64,000 nt of DNA from Aggregatibacter segnis ATCC 33393. GTDB lineage: Bacteria; Pseudomonadota; Gammaproteobacteria; Enterobacterales; Pasteurellaceae. This document shows positions 41,420 through 61,014 of this stretch, one piece after another; within the stretch, counting starts at the first letter, position 1, and every line of letters starts with the position of its first letter. Location: the NCBI RefSeq assembly GCF_000185305.1, contig NZ_GL622200.1, positions 1,282,427 to 1,346,426 on the forward strand, in the 5' to 3' direction. The notes beneath the pieces are model-generated. The model saw nothing but the letters and a program-made list of their open reading frames with translations, did no database searches and had not been told where the DNA came from. The position numbers and the translations under genes are program-made.

Positions 41420-41433
41420 TTGATTGAGATCAT
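41420..41433 (-). promoter_or_regulatory. FNR-like box upstream of hypB
   Basis: TTGAT-N4-ATCAT (plus-strand reading) overlaps the nikO stop codon. With the -10 candidate at 41392-41397 it is centred near -41.5, the class II FNR activator position. Confidence 0.65.
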
Positions 41434-42053
41434 AAAGTCAGAACATCATCAGCCAATTCAGCCGTAAATCCTTGATGATGAGACGCCACCAACATAGGCA
41501 ACGACAGCTCACGCAAAAGTGCGGTCAATTTTTCCGTATTTTTACGATCCAATCCATTCGTCGGCTCGTCTAACAGTAACATTTTCGGTTGCATCGCCAA
41601 CACGCCTGCCAACGCCGTAAAATTTTTCTCTCCACCGGACAGGGTATGTACTGTGCGATCCTGCAAATGAGCAATACCTAAACGTTCCAGTTGCTGCAAA
41701 GCAACAGCATACGCTTGCTGGCGTGACAAACCTTGATTTAACGGCCCGAAGGCAACATCGTCTAATACGGTTGGTCCGAACAGTTGGTCATCGGCGTGCT
41801 GAAAACAAAGCCCCACGGTGCCACGAAAAGGCGCAAAATCTTTTTCTTCCCGACACAACTGCCCGAATAGACGAATCTCGCCGCGCGCAACAGGCACAAA
41901 ACCTAACAAAGCAAGTAATAAGGTGGTTTTGCCTGTGCCGATTTCGCCCTGCACAAAAAAGCGTTGTCCCGCTTCAATTTGAAAAGACAGATTGTCGATA
42001 ATCTGCCGTTCTCCTCGTTTAATTTGCAATCCATTGACTTGTAAAACTGTCAT
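41430..42053 (-). CDS. nikO: Nickel ECF transporter ATP-binding protein NikO
   Basis: A 207-residue cytoplasmic ATPase of the CbiO/EcfA type. Walker A GEIGTGKTTLL (about residue 36), Q-loop, signature LSGGEKN, Walker B MLLLDEPTNGLD and the switch histidine in VASHHQG are present. It overlaps nikQ by 4 bases and is last in nikKLMQO. It energises the nickel uptake that feeds the adjacent HypB. Cobalt cannot be excluded from the ATPase alone, but the NikK and NikL partners point to nickel. Confidence 0.88.
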   Translation of the reverse strand: MTVLQVNGLQIKRGERQIIDNLSFQIEAGQRFFVQGEIGTGKTTLLLALLGFVPVARGEIRLFGQLCREEKDFAPFRGTVGLCFQHADDQLFGPTVLDDVAFGPLNQGLSRQQAYAVALQQLERLGIAHLQDRTVHTLSGGEKNFTALAGVLAMQPKMLLLDEPTNGLDRKNTEKLTALLRELSLPMLVASHHQGFTAELADDVLTL

Positions 42054-50478: not shown

Positions 50479-51987
50479 ATGTCAGAACAAGAAGTGAAAG
50501 AATTAGATTTAAACGGCGAAATGTTAGTCCGTCGTGAAAAATTAGCTGCCCTGCGCGCAAAAGGTAATGCGTTCCCAAACCAATTCCGTCGTGACTCACT
50601 TGCCCAAGATTTGCATGATAAATATGATGCGGAAGAAGGCGAAGCATTAAAAGAACAACATATTGAAGTGGCGGTTGCCGGTCGTATCATGACGCGTCGT
50701 GCTATGGGTAAAGCCACGTTTATCACCATCCAAGATATGAGCGGTAAAATCCAGCTTTATGTTGCACGCGACAATCTACCTGAAGGCGTGTATGGTGATG
50801 ATGTCGGTCACTGGGATTTAGGCGATATCGTAGGCGTAAAAGGCTCATTATTCAAAACCAAAACCAACGAACTCACCGTTAAAGCCACCGACGTACAATT
50901 GCTGACCAAAGCATTGCGTCCGTTACCGGATAAATTCCATGGCTTAACTGACCAAGAAGTGCGCTACCGTCAACGTTACTTGGATTTAATTTCTAACGAA
51001 GAATCCCGCCGCACTTTTATCATTCGGTCAAAAGTGGTTGCAGGCATTCGTGACTACTTTATTTCCAAAGGCTTTATGGAAGTAGAAACTCCGATGTTAC
51101 AAGTCATCCCAGGCGGCGCTTCAGCACGTCCTTTCGTAACACACCATAATGCATTAGACGTAGATATGTACTTGCGTATTGCACCTGAGCTTTACTTAAA
51201 ACGCTTAGTGGTCGGTGGCTTTGAGCGTGTATTTGAATTGAACCGCAACTTCCGTAACGAAGGCGTATCCGTTCGTCACAACCCGGAATTCACCATGCTT
51301 GAATACTACCAAGCCTATGCCGACTACCACGATTTAATGGATAACACCGAAGAATTGTTACGCAAACTTGCCATCGACATTTTAGGCACAACCATCGTGA
51401 AATACGGCGAATACGAATTCGACTTCGGCAAACCATTCGAGCGTATTACCTTACACGACGCCACCATTAAATATGGTGCAGACAAAGGTATAGTAAAAGA
51501 AGATTTATACGATATTGATCGCGCGAAAGCAGTTGCCGCTCGCTTAGGTATCGAAGTACAAAAATCTTGGGGCTTAGGCAGCATTGTCAACGCGATTTTT
51601 GAAGAAGTGGCAGAGCATCATTTAATTCAACCAACTTTCTTAATGGCACATCCGGCGGAAATTTCTCCGTTAGCTCGTCGTAACGATGAAAACCCGGAAG
51701 TCACCGATCGCTTTGAACTCTTCATCGGTGGACGCGAAATCGGTAACGGTTTCTCCGAGCTTAACGATGCGGAAGACCAAAATGAACGCTTTGACGCCCA
51801 AGTGGCCGCCAAAGAAGCCGGTGATGATGAAGCGATGTTCAAAGACGAAGATTTCGTTGTCGCCCTTGAACACGGTTTACCACCAACAGCCGGCGAAGGA
51901 TTGGGTATCGACCGTCTCGCCATGCTTTACGCCAACGCCCCATCCATCCGCGATGTGATTTTATTCCCGGCAATGCGTCAGAAATAA
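50479..51987 (+). CDS. lysS: Lysyl-tRNA synthetase (class II)
   Basis: A 502-residue cytoplasmic enzyme charging tRNA-Lys. An N-terminal OB-fold anticodon-binding domain ([21 protein letters not shown]) is followed by the class II core with motif 1 near residue 180, motif 2 ([18 protein letters not shown]) and motif 3 ([12 protein letters not shown]) near the end. Length is as in E. coli (505). AAGGT precedes the ATG 49 bases after prfB, so they may share a transcript. A terminator follows at 52007. Confidence 0.96.
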
Positions 51988-52006
51988 TTAAAATCAAATC
52001 ATCCAA

Positions 52007-52037
52007 AAAAGGAAGTCATTCGACTTCCTTTTTTATT
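52007..52037 (+). terminator. Terminator after lysS
   Basis: AAAAGGAAGTC (52007-52017) pairs with GACTTCCTTTT (52022-52032), loop ATTC, followed by T-run. Confidence 0.9.
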
Positions 52038-52124: not shown

Positions 52125-52254
52125 TTGATCGCTATATAATAATTTGTATAATGAATCCGTTTTCATTTAAGATAGTCGTCATTCTTAAACACAGTGGCCG
52201 GTGCAAACACTCCCCCACGTCTTTATCAAAGATATTCGCACCGGCCATTTTTTT
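52125..52254 (+). ncRNA. Candidate small RNA with strong promoter and terminator
   Basis: A near-consensus promoter is seen: TTGATC (52125-52130), 16-base spacer, TATAAT (52147-52152), predicting a start near 52159. The RNA would end about 95 nt later at a 10-bp GC-rich hairpin (TGGCCGGTGC 52195-52204 with GCACCGGCCA 52238-52247) and seven T. The hairpin loop carries the C-rich word ACTCCCCCAC and a small inner TCTTT/AAAGA hairpin. No translated frame with a ribosome-binding site fits. It could be a free sRNA or a leader of the gene starting at 52318. Confidence 0.6.
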
Positions 52255-52317: not shown

Positions 52318-53073
52318 ATGCATAATTTAGCCCTAGAAAACCTACTTAATCAAAAGCTCAATAGCGATACCATCAACGACTACGCACCCAATGGCTTACA
52401 AGTGGAAGGCAAGGTCGAAGTCAAAAAAATCATCACCGGCGTCACCGCCAGCCAAGCGTTAATTGATTATGCTGTTGAACAAAAAGCCGATGCATTGCTC
52501 GTTCATCATGGTTATTTTTGGAAAAGCGAAAATCCTTGTATTCGCGGCATGAAGGGCAAACGAATCAAAACATTATTAGTCAATGACATCAATTTATACG
52601 GCTATCATTTGCCTTTAGATGTTCACCCAGAGCTAGGCAACAACGCTCAGCTCGCCCAATTGCTCGGTATCGAAAATCTTCAACCGCTAGAACAAAACGC
52701 AATCAGCATTCCTGTTTGGGGAACCTTAAAAGAACCGTTAACTGCCGAACAATTTGCTAAACGCATCGAACAGATGTTAAAGCGCAGACCATTAATTTGC
52801 ACAGAAAACGGACCGCACGTTATCCGCAAAATCGGTATCTGCACCGGTGGTGGTCAAGGTTATATTGATCTTGCAGCAGCCCAAGGTTGTGACGCCTTTA
52901 TCACCGGAGAAGTATCTGAACAAACGATCCATTCTGCGAGGGAGCAAGGAATTCATTTCTTTGCTGCAGGTCACCACGCCACTGAACGTTATGGCGTAAA
53001 AGCGTTAGGTGAATGGCTGGCAAACGAACAGGGATTTGAGGTGGAATTTAAGGATATAGATAACCCGGCATAA
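52318..53073 (+). CDS. NIF3/YbgI family metal-binding protein
   Basis: A 251-residue cytoplasmic protein of the NIF3 family (YbgI in E. coli, often labelled GTP cyclohydrolase type 2-like). Metal ligands are seen in ALLVHHGYFWK (His pair, about residue 62), YHLPLDVHPELGNN (about 98) and GHHATERYGV near the C-terminus (about 217). It forms toroidal hexamers with a di-metal centre. Its true job is unsettled; roles in cofactor repair and DNA damage have been proposed. The gene follows the candidate sRNA by about 60 bases. Confidence 0.88.
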   Translation: MHNLALENLLNQKLNSDTINDYAPNGLQVEGKVEVKKIITGVTASQALIDYAVEQKADALLVHHGYFWKSENPCIRGMKGKRIKTLLVNDINLYGYHLPLDVHPELGNNAQLAQLLGIENLQPLEQNAISIPVWGTLKEPLTAEQFAKRIEQMLKRRPLICTENGPHVIRKIGICTGGGQGYIDLAAAQGCDAFITGEVSEQTIHSAREQGIHFFAAGHHATERYGVKALGEWLANEQGFEVEFKDIDNPA

Positions 53074-60762: not shown

Positions 60763-60832
60763 AGTGCGGTCCAAAAAAGAAATATTTTTCACTTTTATTT
60801 ACAAATCAATAACAAACACCTATAGTAATGCG

Positions 60833-60924
60833 CGTTAGTCGGGGTGCTCCGTTGGCTTAAATAACGGAGCTGAGAAATACCCGTGAACCTGATACAGTTA
60901 GCACTGACGTAGGAAACTAATGCA
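60833..60924 (+). promoter_or_regulatory. TPP (thi-box) riboswitch
   Basis: The sequence carries the conserved parts of the thiamine pyrophosphate aptamer in order: GGGGTGC (60842-60848), a hairpin GCTCCGTT/AACGGAGC, CTGAGAAATACCC, GTGAACCTGATACAGTT and the 3' CTGACGTAGGAAAC. The P1 stem is GCGTTAGT with ACTAATGC. It lies about 90 bases before the binding-protein gene. No strong terminator hairpin was seen in the platform; the ATTAGT/TTAGTT words near 60967 may allow alternative pairing. Confidence 0.93.
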
Positions 60925-61014
60925 CTTCACTCTGCTTCCATGGCTTCTTTCAGCCTATTTCCCCGTTTAGTTGTTAGCTGGTTTTGTTTTTCAATCTCAC
61001 CAAGGATTAAATCA

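Follow-up and report, generated by a model that had tools for sequence, protein, structure and literature searches.

The gap between lysS and the NIF3 gene of Aggregatibacter segnis ATCC 33393 raises the question of whether it contains a gene for an RNA and, if so, what that RNA acts on and what controls it. The gap lies in a stretch of 64,000 nucleotides, referred to here as the window, in which all positions below are counted. An original prediction, made from the sequence of the window, placed a stand-alone small RNA of about 95 nt in the gap, with a C-rich loop that could mask G-rich ribosome-binding sites.

Anatomy of the element in the lysS-NIF3 gap

In the window, lysS occupies positions 50479-51987 and is followed by its own terminator at 52005-52034; the NIF3 gene begins downstream of the candidate and spans 52318-53073. 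A sigma-70-type promoter, TTGATC-N16-TATAAT, is located on the forward strand at 52125..52152, with the -35 hexamer at 52125-52130 and the -10 hexamer at 52147-52152, and its 16-nt spacing is constant across genera. It is the only sigma-70-like match of a pattern scan between 51500 and 53000, although by themselves such matches do not exceed chance expectation (shuffles yield 2.6). Placing the transcript start 7 nt past the -10 box gives a predicted RNA at 52159..52254 (+), of approximately 96 nt, in close agreement with the length first proposed. The predicted fold has an energy of -25.9 kcal/mol, compared with a mean of -11.3 for shuffled sequences (z = -5.9; 0/200 shuffles).

The 3' part of the RNA is a GC-rich hairpin, TGGCCGGTGC...GCACCGGCCA, which together with its seven T occupies 52195-52254. 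The stem has 10 pairs, formed by arms at 52195..52204 and 52238..52247 (+), and is followed by the U-tract of the intrinsic terminator, seven T at 52248..52254 (+). The C-rich loop ACTCCCCCAC, at 52209..52218 (+), has no pairing partner in the predicted fold and is found a single time in the window, versus 0.04 times expected; it is the predicted seed for target pairing. Promoter, loop and terminator thus all stand where the original prediction had put them, and its description of the loop as free to pair agrees with the fold. Within the loop, a small inner hairpin (GTCTTT/AAAGAT, 52219..52233, +) is indicated by the fold and by length variation among homologues, and is missing in Haemophilus. 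Ahead of the hairpin lies a conserved single-stranded 5' motif (52170..52180, +), which reads AGATAGTCGTC in the window and AGTAGTAA or AGATAGTAA in the relatives; it is perhaps an Hfq site or a second seed.

Two overlapping open reading frames were dismissed as coding sequences, as they are not conserved. The ATG of one overlaps the -10 box, ahead of the transcript start; the other has a GTG start in the stem, and the loop lengths of the relatives differ by non-multiples of three. The earlier statement that the RNA has no supported frame is therefore upheld. It had also been described as not recognisable as 4.5S, 6S, tmRNA or GcvB. In the Rfam scan no family is matched at gathering score, none is credible up to an E value of 10, and the matches at permissive E values are chance ones, the best of which falls on the lysS terminator. 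The sole Rfam match in the window is a TPP riboswitch aptamer at 60830-60932 (+), with a score of 62.3 bits.

Conservation, covariation and relocation

A DNA search detects the element in 9/9 genomes of the genus as well as in relatives. The family was surveyed with a covariance model over 140 Pasteurellaceae genomes and then with the promoter pattern, which added two carriers (G021 and G026). The promoter and C-rich hairpin are present in 46 of the 140 genomes, in 11 genera, among them Haemophilus, Pasteurella and Aggregatibacter, the carriers including A. kilianii, H. parainfluenzae, H. haemolyticus and Bisgaard Taxon 45. Over 28 distinct sequences, two-sided changes are seen in 8/10 pairs of the stem, with 97.8% of cells paired and 0/500 shuffles equal; slid controls give 20-44%. 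This alignment was fitted to the structure, but covariation of these pairs is also apparent to the eye in plain listings. The C-run of the loop is retained across genera despite the changes in stem sequence, and L125, L135, L136 and L138, from two genera, have a second C-run at the tip of an inner hairpin. The original prediction had staked itself on conservation of stem and loop in relatives; both are conserved. Since the element is present in every genome of the genus and in 46 of the 140 of the family, with strong covariation of its stem, it is beyond chance, and we regard it as highly probable that it is a real, conserved small RNA gene.

Several weaker matches were set aside. Apparent second copies in G007 and G008 (L145, L146), weak matches to the model, resemble coding sequence, a second match in G117 (L140) is a plain terminator, and most matches of model R2 in the other genomes are ordinary terminators. 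Among 80 NIF3 loci, strong matches occur in Pasteurellaceae only, and weak ones in Vibrio and Aliivibrio were taken as terminators. Three copies are decayed (L134, L137 and L139, in G144, G147 and G152): the promoter with its ModE box, described below, and the C-run are lost, while the terminator stem upstream of NIF3 is retained. Upstream of tyrS in G009 (L374, reverse strand, approximately 1501-1537), a hairpin, TACGCTGCATTCCCCCACAAAATGCAGCGT, with a T-run carries the same loop word, TTCCCCCAC, about 50 nt past a Fur-box-like TTGATAATTATTATCATTA; it matches model R2 with E = 1.3e-3 and is possibly a relative under iron control.

The location between lysS and NIF3 holds in the window, but in relatives the gene on the left is not always lysS; across the carriers the neighbours are lysS, queE, queC, mop, recR or NIF3. 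In L125, L135, L136 and L138 the element is oriented convergently with recR and has pepA or mop as its other neighbour; in L348 it is flanked by mop and a TonB-receptor gene, and in L131, too, it is away from NIF3. The promoter, 5' stretch, loop and terminator relocate as one unit, as the description of a stand-alone RNA would have it; like a trans-acting base-pairing RNA, the element has a promoter and an intrinsic terminator of its own, independent of the neighbouring gene. Five genomes from four other genera (G021, G026, G077 and two of g8) have it divergent from mop, whose product has two molybdenum-pterin-binding domains (TIGR00638, E = 1.6e-37).

These arrangements bear on two simpler explanations. 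Most carriers have NIF3 as their right-hand neighbour, as would suit a cis-acting leader or attenuator of that gene; however, the element is away from NIF3 in several genera and is therefore a gene of its own, it contains no anti-terminator-like alternative, and its conserved part is the loop and not the sequence of the stem. We consider a NIF3 leader very improbable. The hairpin also ends in a U-tract like any terminator, and could in principle be nothing else, with a C-rich loop arising by chance. Against this, the loop, the promoter approximately 45 nt upstream and the 5' motif are all conserved through relocation to new neighbours, and lysS already has its own terminator; this explanation can be given next to no weight.

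A putative ModE box and the predicted targets

The consensus of the E. coli ModE site is ATCGNTATATA-N6-TATATANCGAT (PMC545781). The promoter contains a putative ModE box, ATCGCTATATA-ATAATT-TGTATAATGAA, at 52128..52155 (no strand assigned), which spans the -35 to the -10 region and agrees with this consensus at 17/20 positions; it is the top site in the 64 kb, the next scoring 14. A ModE-type box is found at the same position in 27/27 intact homologous promoters scored, at 14-18/20; shuffles average approximately 12, and shuffles of the same upstream stretches seldom reach the score of the box. Conservation of the promoter extends past the two hexamers, and in the three decayed copies the box is lost. 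Related boxes (13-19/20) also occur at modA promoters in the same genomes. A ModE gene (TIGR00637) is over the cut-off in 104/140 genomes, including G000, and is present in 46/46 carriers; the candidate thus shares with the ModE regulon an operator at the promoter that matches the consensus, and its carriers also encode ModE. Co-occurrence of ModE with the small RNA is weak when counted by genus (p = 0.02), since relatives are not independent. The putative operator overlaps the -35 to -10 region, so that repression would be the likely direction of control.

The search for targets preceded any consideration of ModE and looked, in five genomes, for TGGGGGAR, the complement of the loop, a short distance ahead of an ATG; a general scan with TGGGGGN{2,13}ATG gave too many sites for use. 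The ribosome-binding-site matches common to two genera are those of napA and dmsA. Over 25 carriers, the napA site pairs with its cognate loop with a mean energy of -18.9 kcal/mol, compared with -8.0 for modA starts and -5.3 for NIF3 starts, values which are partly circular because the choice of targets began from the loop complement. The napA site is complementary to the loop in 25/25 carriers tested, with a longest perfect run of 6-12 nt, and the dmsA site has at least 5 G in most carriers that bear the gene, so that a conserved seed faces conserved target sites, as in trans-acting small RNAs.

In the window genome, fdnG (GUGGGGAGU) reaches -23.0, equalled by 0/55 background starts, and napA -16.8, equalled by 1/55; C-rich loops are promiscuous in their pairing, and napA is equalled in energy by one unrelated start of the window. 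Outside Aggregatibacter, in the other genera examined, the fdnG site is an ordinary AAGGAG, and the loop is CUCCCCC in Aggregatibacter versus UUCCCCC in Haemophilus. In G108, the loop (UUCCCACAC) and the napA site (GUGUGGGAA) have changed jointly relative to UUCCCCCAC/GUGGGGGAA. The napA site of G108 pairs poorly with the loops of H. influenzae and H. parainfluenzae (-11.0), although the loop of G108 itself also pairs well with the napA site of H. parainfluenzae (-15.5). In G144, one of the genomes with a decayed copy, the napA site is now GUGGGAGAAA. At least 5 G before napA are present in 7/22 non-carriers examined, and the G-run is thus not dependent on the small RNA alone. Independent support for the predicted targets comes from the link of both operator and neighbours to molybdenum, from the change at fdnG and from that in G108. 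At napA, dmsA and fdnG there are G-rich ribosome-binding sites that match the loop, of the kind that the original prediction had proposed it could mask; the ModE box and the molybdoenzyme theme are additions to a reading that is supported and largely right.

Other starts also match the loop. An ABC-transporter ATPase gene of the window (41433-42053, -), with the ribosome-binding site AGTGGGGAAAA, is the top loop match among 55 starts, at -17.4. In two Aggregatibacter species, ytfE, an iron-sulfur repair gene (L204/L256), and a yjjB-type threonine/serine exporter gene (L188/L252) have TGGGGGAA as ribosome-binding site and are possible further targets. Among the formate dehydrogenases (L446, L450-L453, L455-L461), several frames stop after approximately 145-225 residues, as would be expected with an in-frame selenocysteine TGA.

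A molybdate-sparing model and its relation to known systems

The anatomy of the gene, its conservation, the covarying stem, the ModE box and the loop-target complementarity with its one matched change, all read from sequence, are consistent with a stand-alone, trans-acting small RNA that is repressed by ModE and blocks translation of molybdoenzymes at low molybdate. According to this model, molybdate-bound ModE would repress the small RNA promoter. When molybdate is scarce, ModE would leave the operator over the -35 to -10 region and the RNA of approximately 96 nt would be made, perhaps with a role for Hfq. Its C-rich terminator loop would then pair with the G-rich ribosome-binding sites of the napA, dmsA and, in Aggregatibacter, fdnG mRNAs, and their translation would be blocked, sparing the cell the synthesis of enzymes that cannot be loaded with molybdenum. 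We hold this mechanism, as a whole, to be probable.

Two alternatives accept the RNA and dispute its regulator or its identity. It may be a trans-acting small RNA with G-rich targets and no ModE control, the match to the box arising from an AT-rich promoter. The right half-site does overlap the -10 box, whose conservation would be expected in any case, and the weakness of the co-occurrence by genus fits this explanation as well. However, the left half, ATCGNTATATA, lies in the end of the -35 hexamer and in the spacer, where it is dispensable for the promoter; the shuffled stretches rarely score as high; and mop is divergent from the element in four genera, while the best cross-genus targets are molybdoenzymes. 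A small RNA outside ModE control is thus unlikely, though it deserves more weight than the other alternatives. The element could also be one of the Fur-regulated small RNAs of A. actinomycetemcomitans (JA01-JA04) or HrrF, and JA03 and JA04 are described as widely conserved in Pasteurellaceae (PMC4144887). HrrF, on the other hand, is under Fur control and has its gene between pmbA and hpt (PMC4144887), and is hence a different RNA, and every intact promoter scored carries a ModE-type box at one fixed position. An identity with the JA RNAs or HrrF seems to us highly doubtful, and ModE repression remains the preferred reading.

Metal-sparing small RNAs are well known for iron; for molybdenum we know of none, and none was found in the literature searched. 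Literature on the loop sequence, on ModE or molybdate with small RNAs, and on small RNAs of Pasteurellaceae and Aggregatibacter contains no description of the candidate, of which an earlier, unnamed sighting is possible, for example among the 86 intergenic transcripts of H. influenzae 86-028NP. A ModE-controlled small RNA is likewise not described in the literature searched, nor is one named in the available part of a review of small RNAs in nitrate respiration (PMC8139620). It is likely, if somewhat less so than the mechanism itself, that this Pasteurellaceae family is the first described ModE-repressed, molybdate-sparing small RNA, turning off Nap, Dms and the formate dehydrogenase of Aggregatibacter, with loop and targets co-evolving. 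If so, ModE would act on molybdoenzymes through an RNA in addition to its direct control, and a post-transcriptional switch would couple anaerobic respiration in Haemophilus and Pasteurella (Nap, Dms, formate dehydrogenase) to the supply of molybdate. The loop-target complementarity lends itself to compensatory-mutation analysis.

Small RNAs that mask Shine-Dalgarno sequences with C-rich loops include RoxS/RsaE, LhrC and RepG. The candidate likewise has an exposed C-rich stretch that is predicted to pair with G-rich ribosome-binding sites, but the bacteria, sequences, regulators and targets differ, homology being judged here from the Rfam scan alone. HrrF, a Fur-regulated small RNA of H. influenzae of approximately 97 nt, lies between pmbA and hpt and lowers modABC (PMC4144887). 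Like the candidate it is a Pasteurellaceae small RNA of similar length that is tied to a metal; the candidate, in contrast, is not found between pmbA and hpt, and the reported targets of HrrF do not include napA or dmsA. The operator of the candidate is of the type (PMC545781) found in the E. coli ModE regulon, which comprises modABC, nap and other molybdenum genes. In E. coli, nap expression is tied to molybdate through ModE (PMC8139620); ModE there activates nap transcription directly. In the candidate system, the link to nap would instead run via the small RNA. The closest parallel in logic is RyhB, the iron-sparing small RNA of Enterobacterales, which is silenced by the metal-bound repressor Fur and, when the metal is scarce, represses proteins that use it. 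The candidate differs from RyhB in its metal and its ModE box, in its seed, which lies in the terminator loop, and in sequence, the RyhB family model of Rfam giving no match at gathering score and no credible one at E values up to 10. What the two would share is the arrangement itself: a metal-controlled repressor, a small RNA, and the proteins of that metal.
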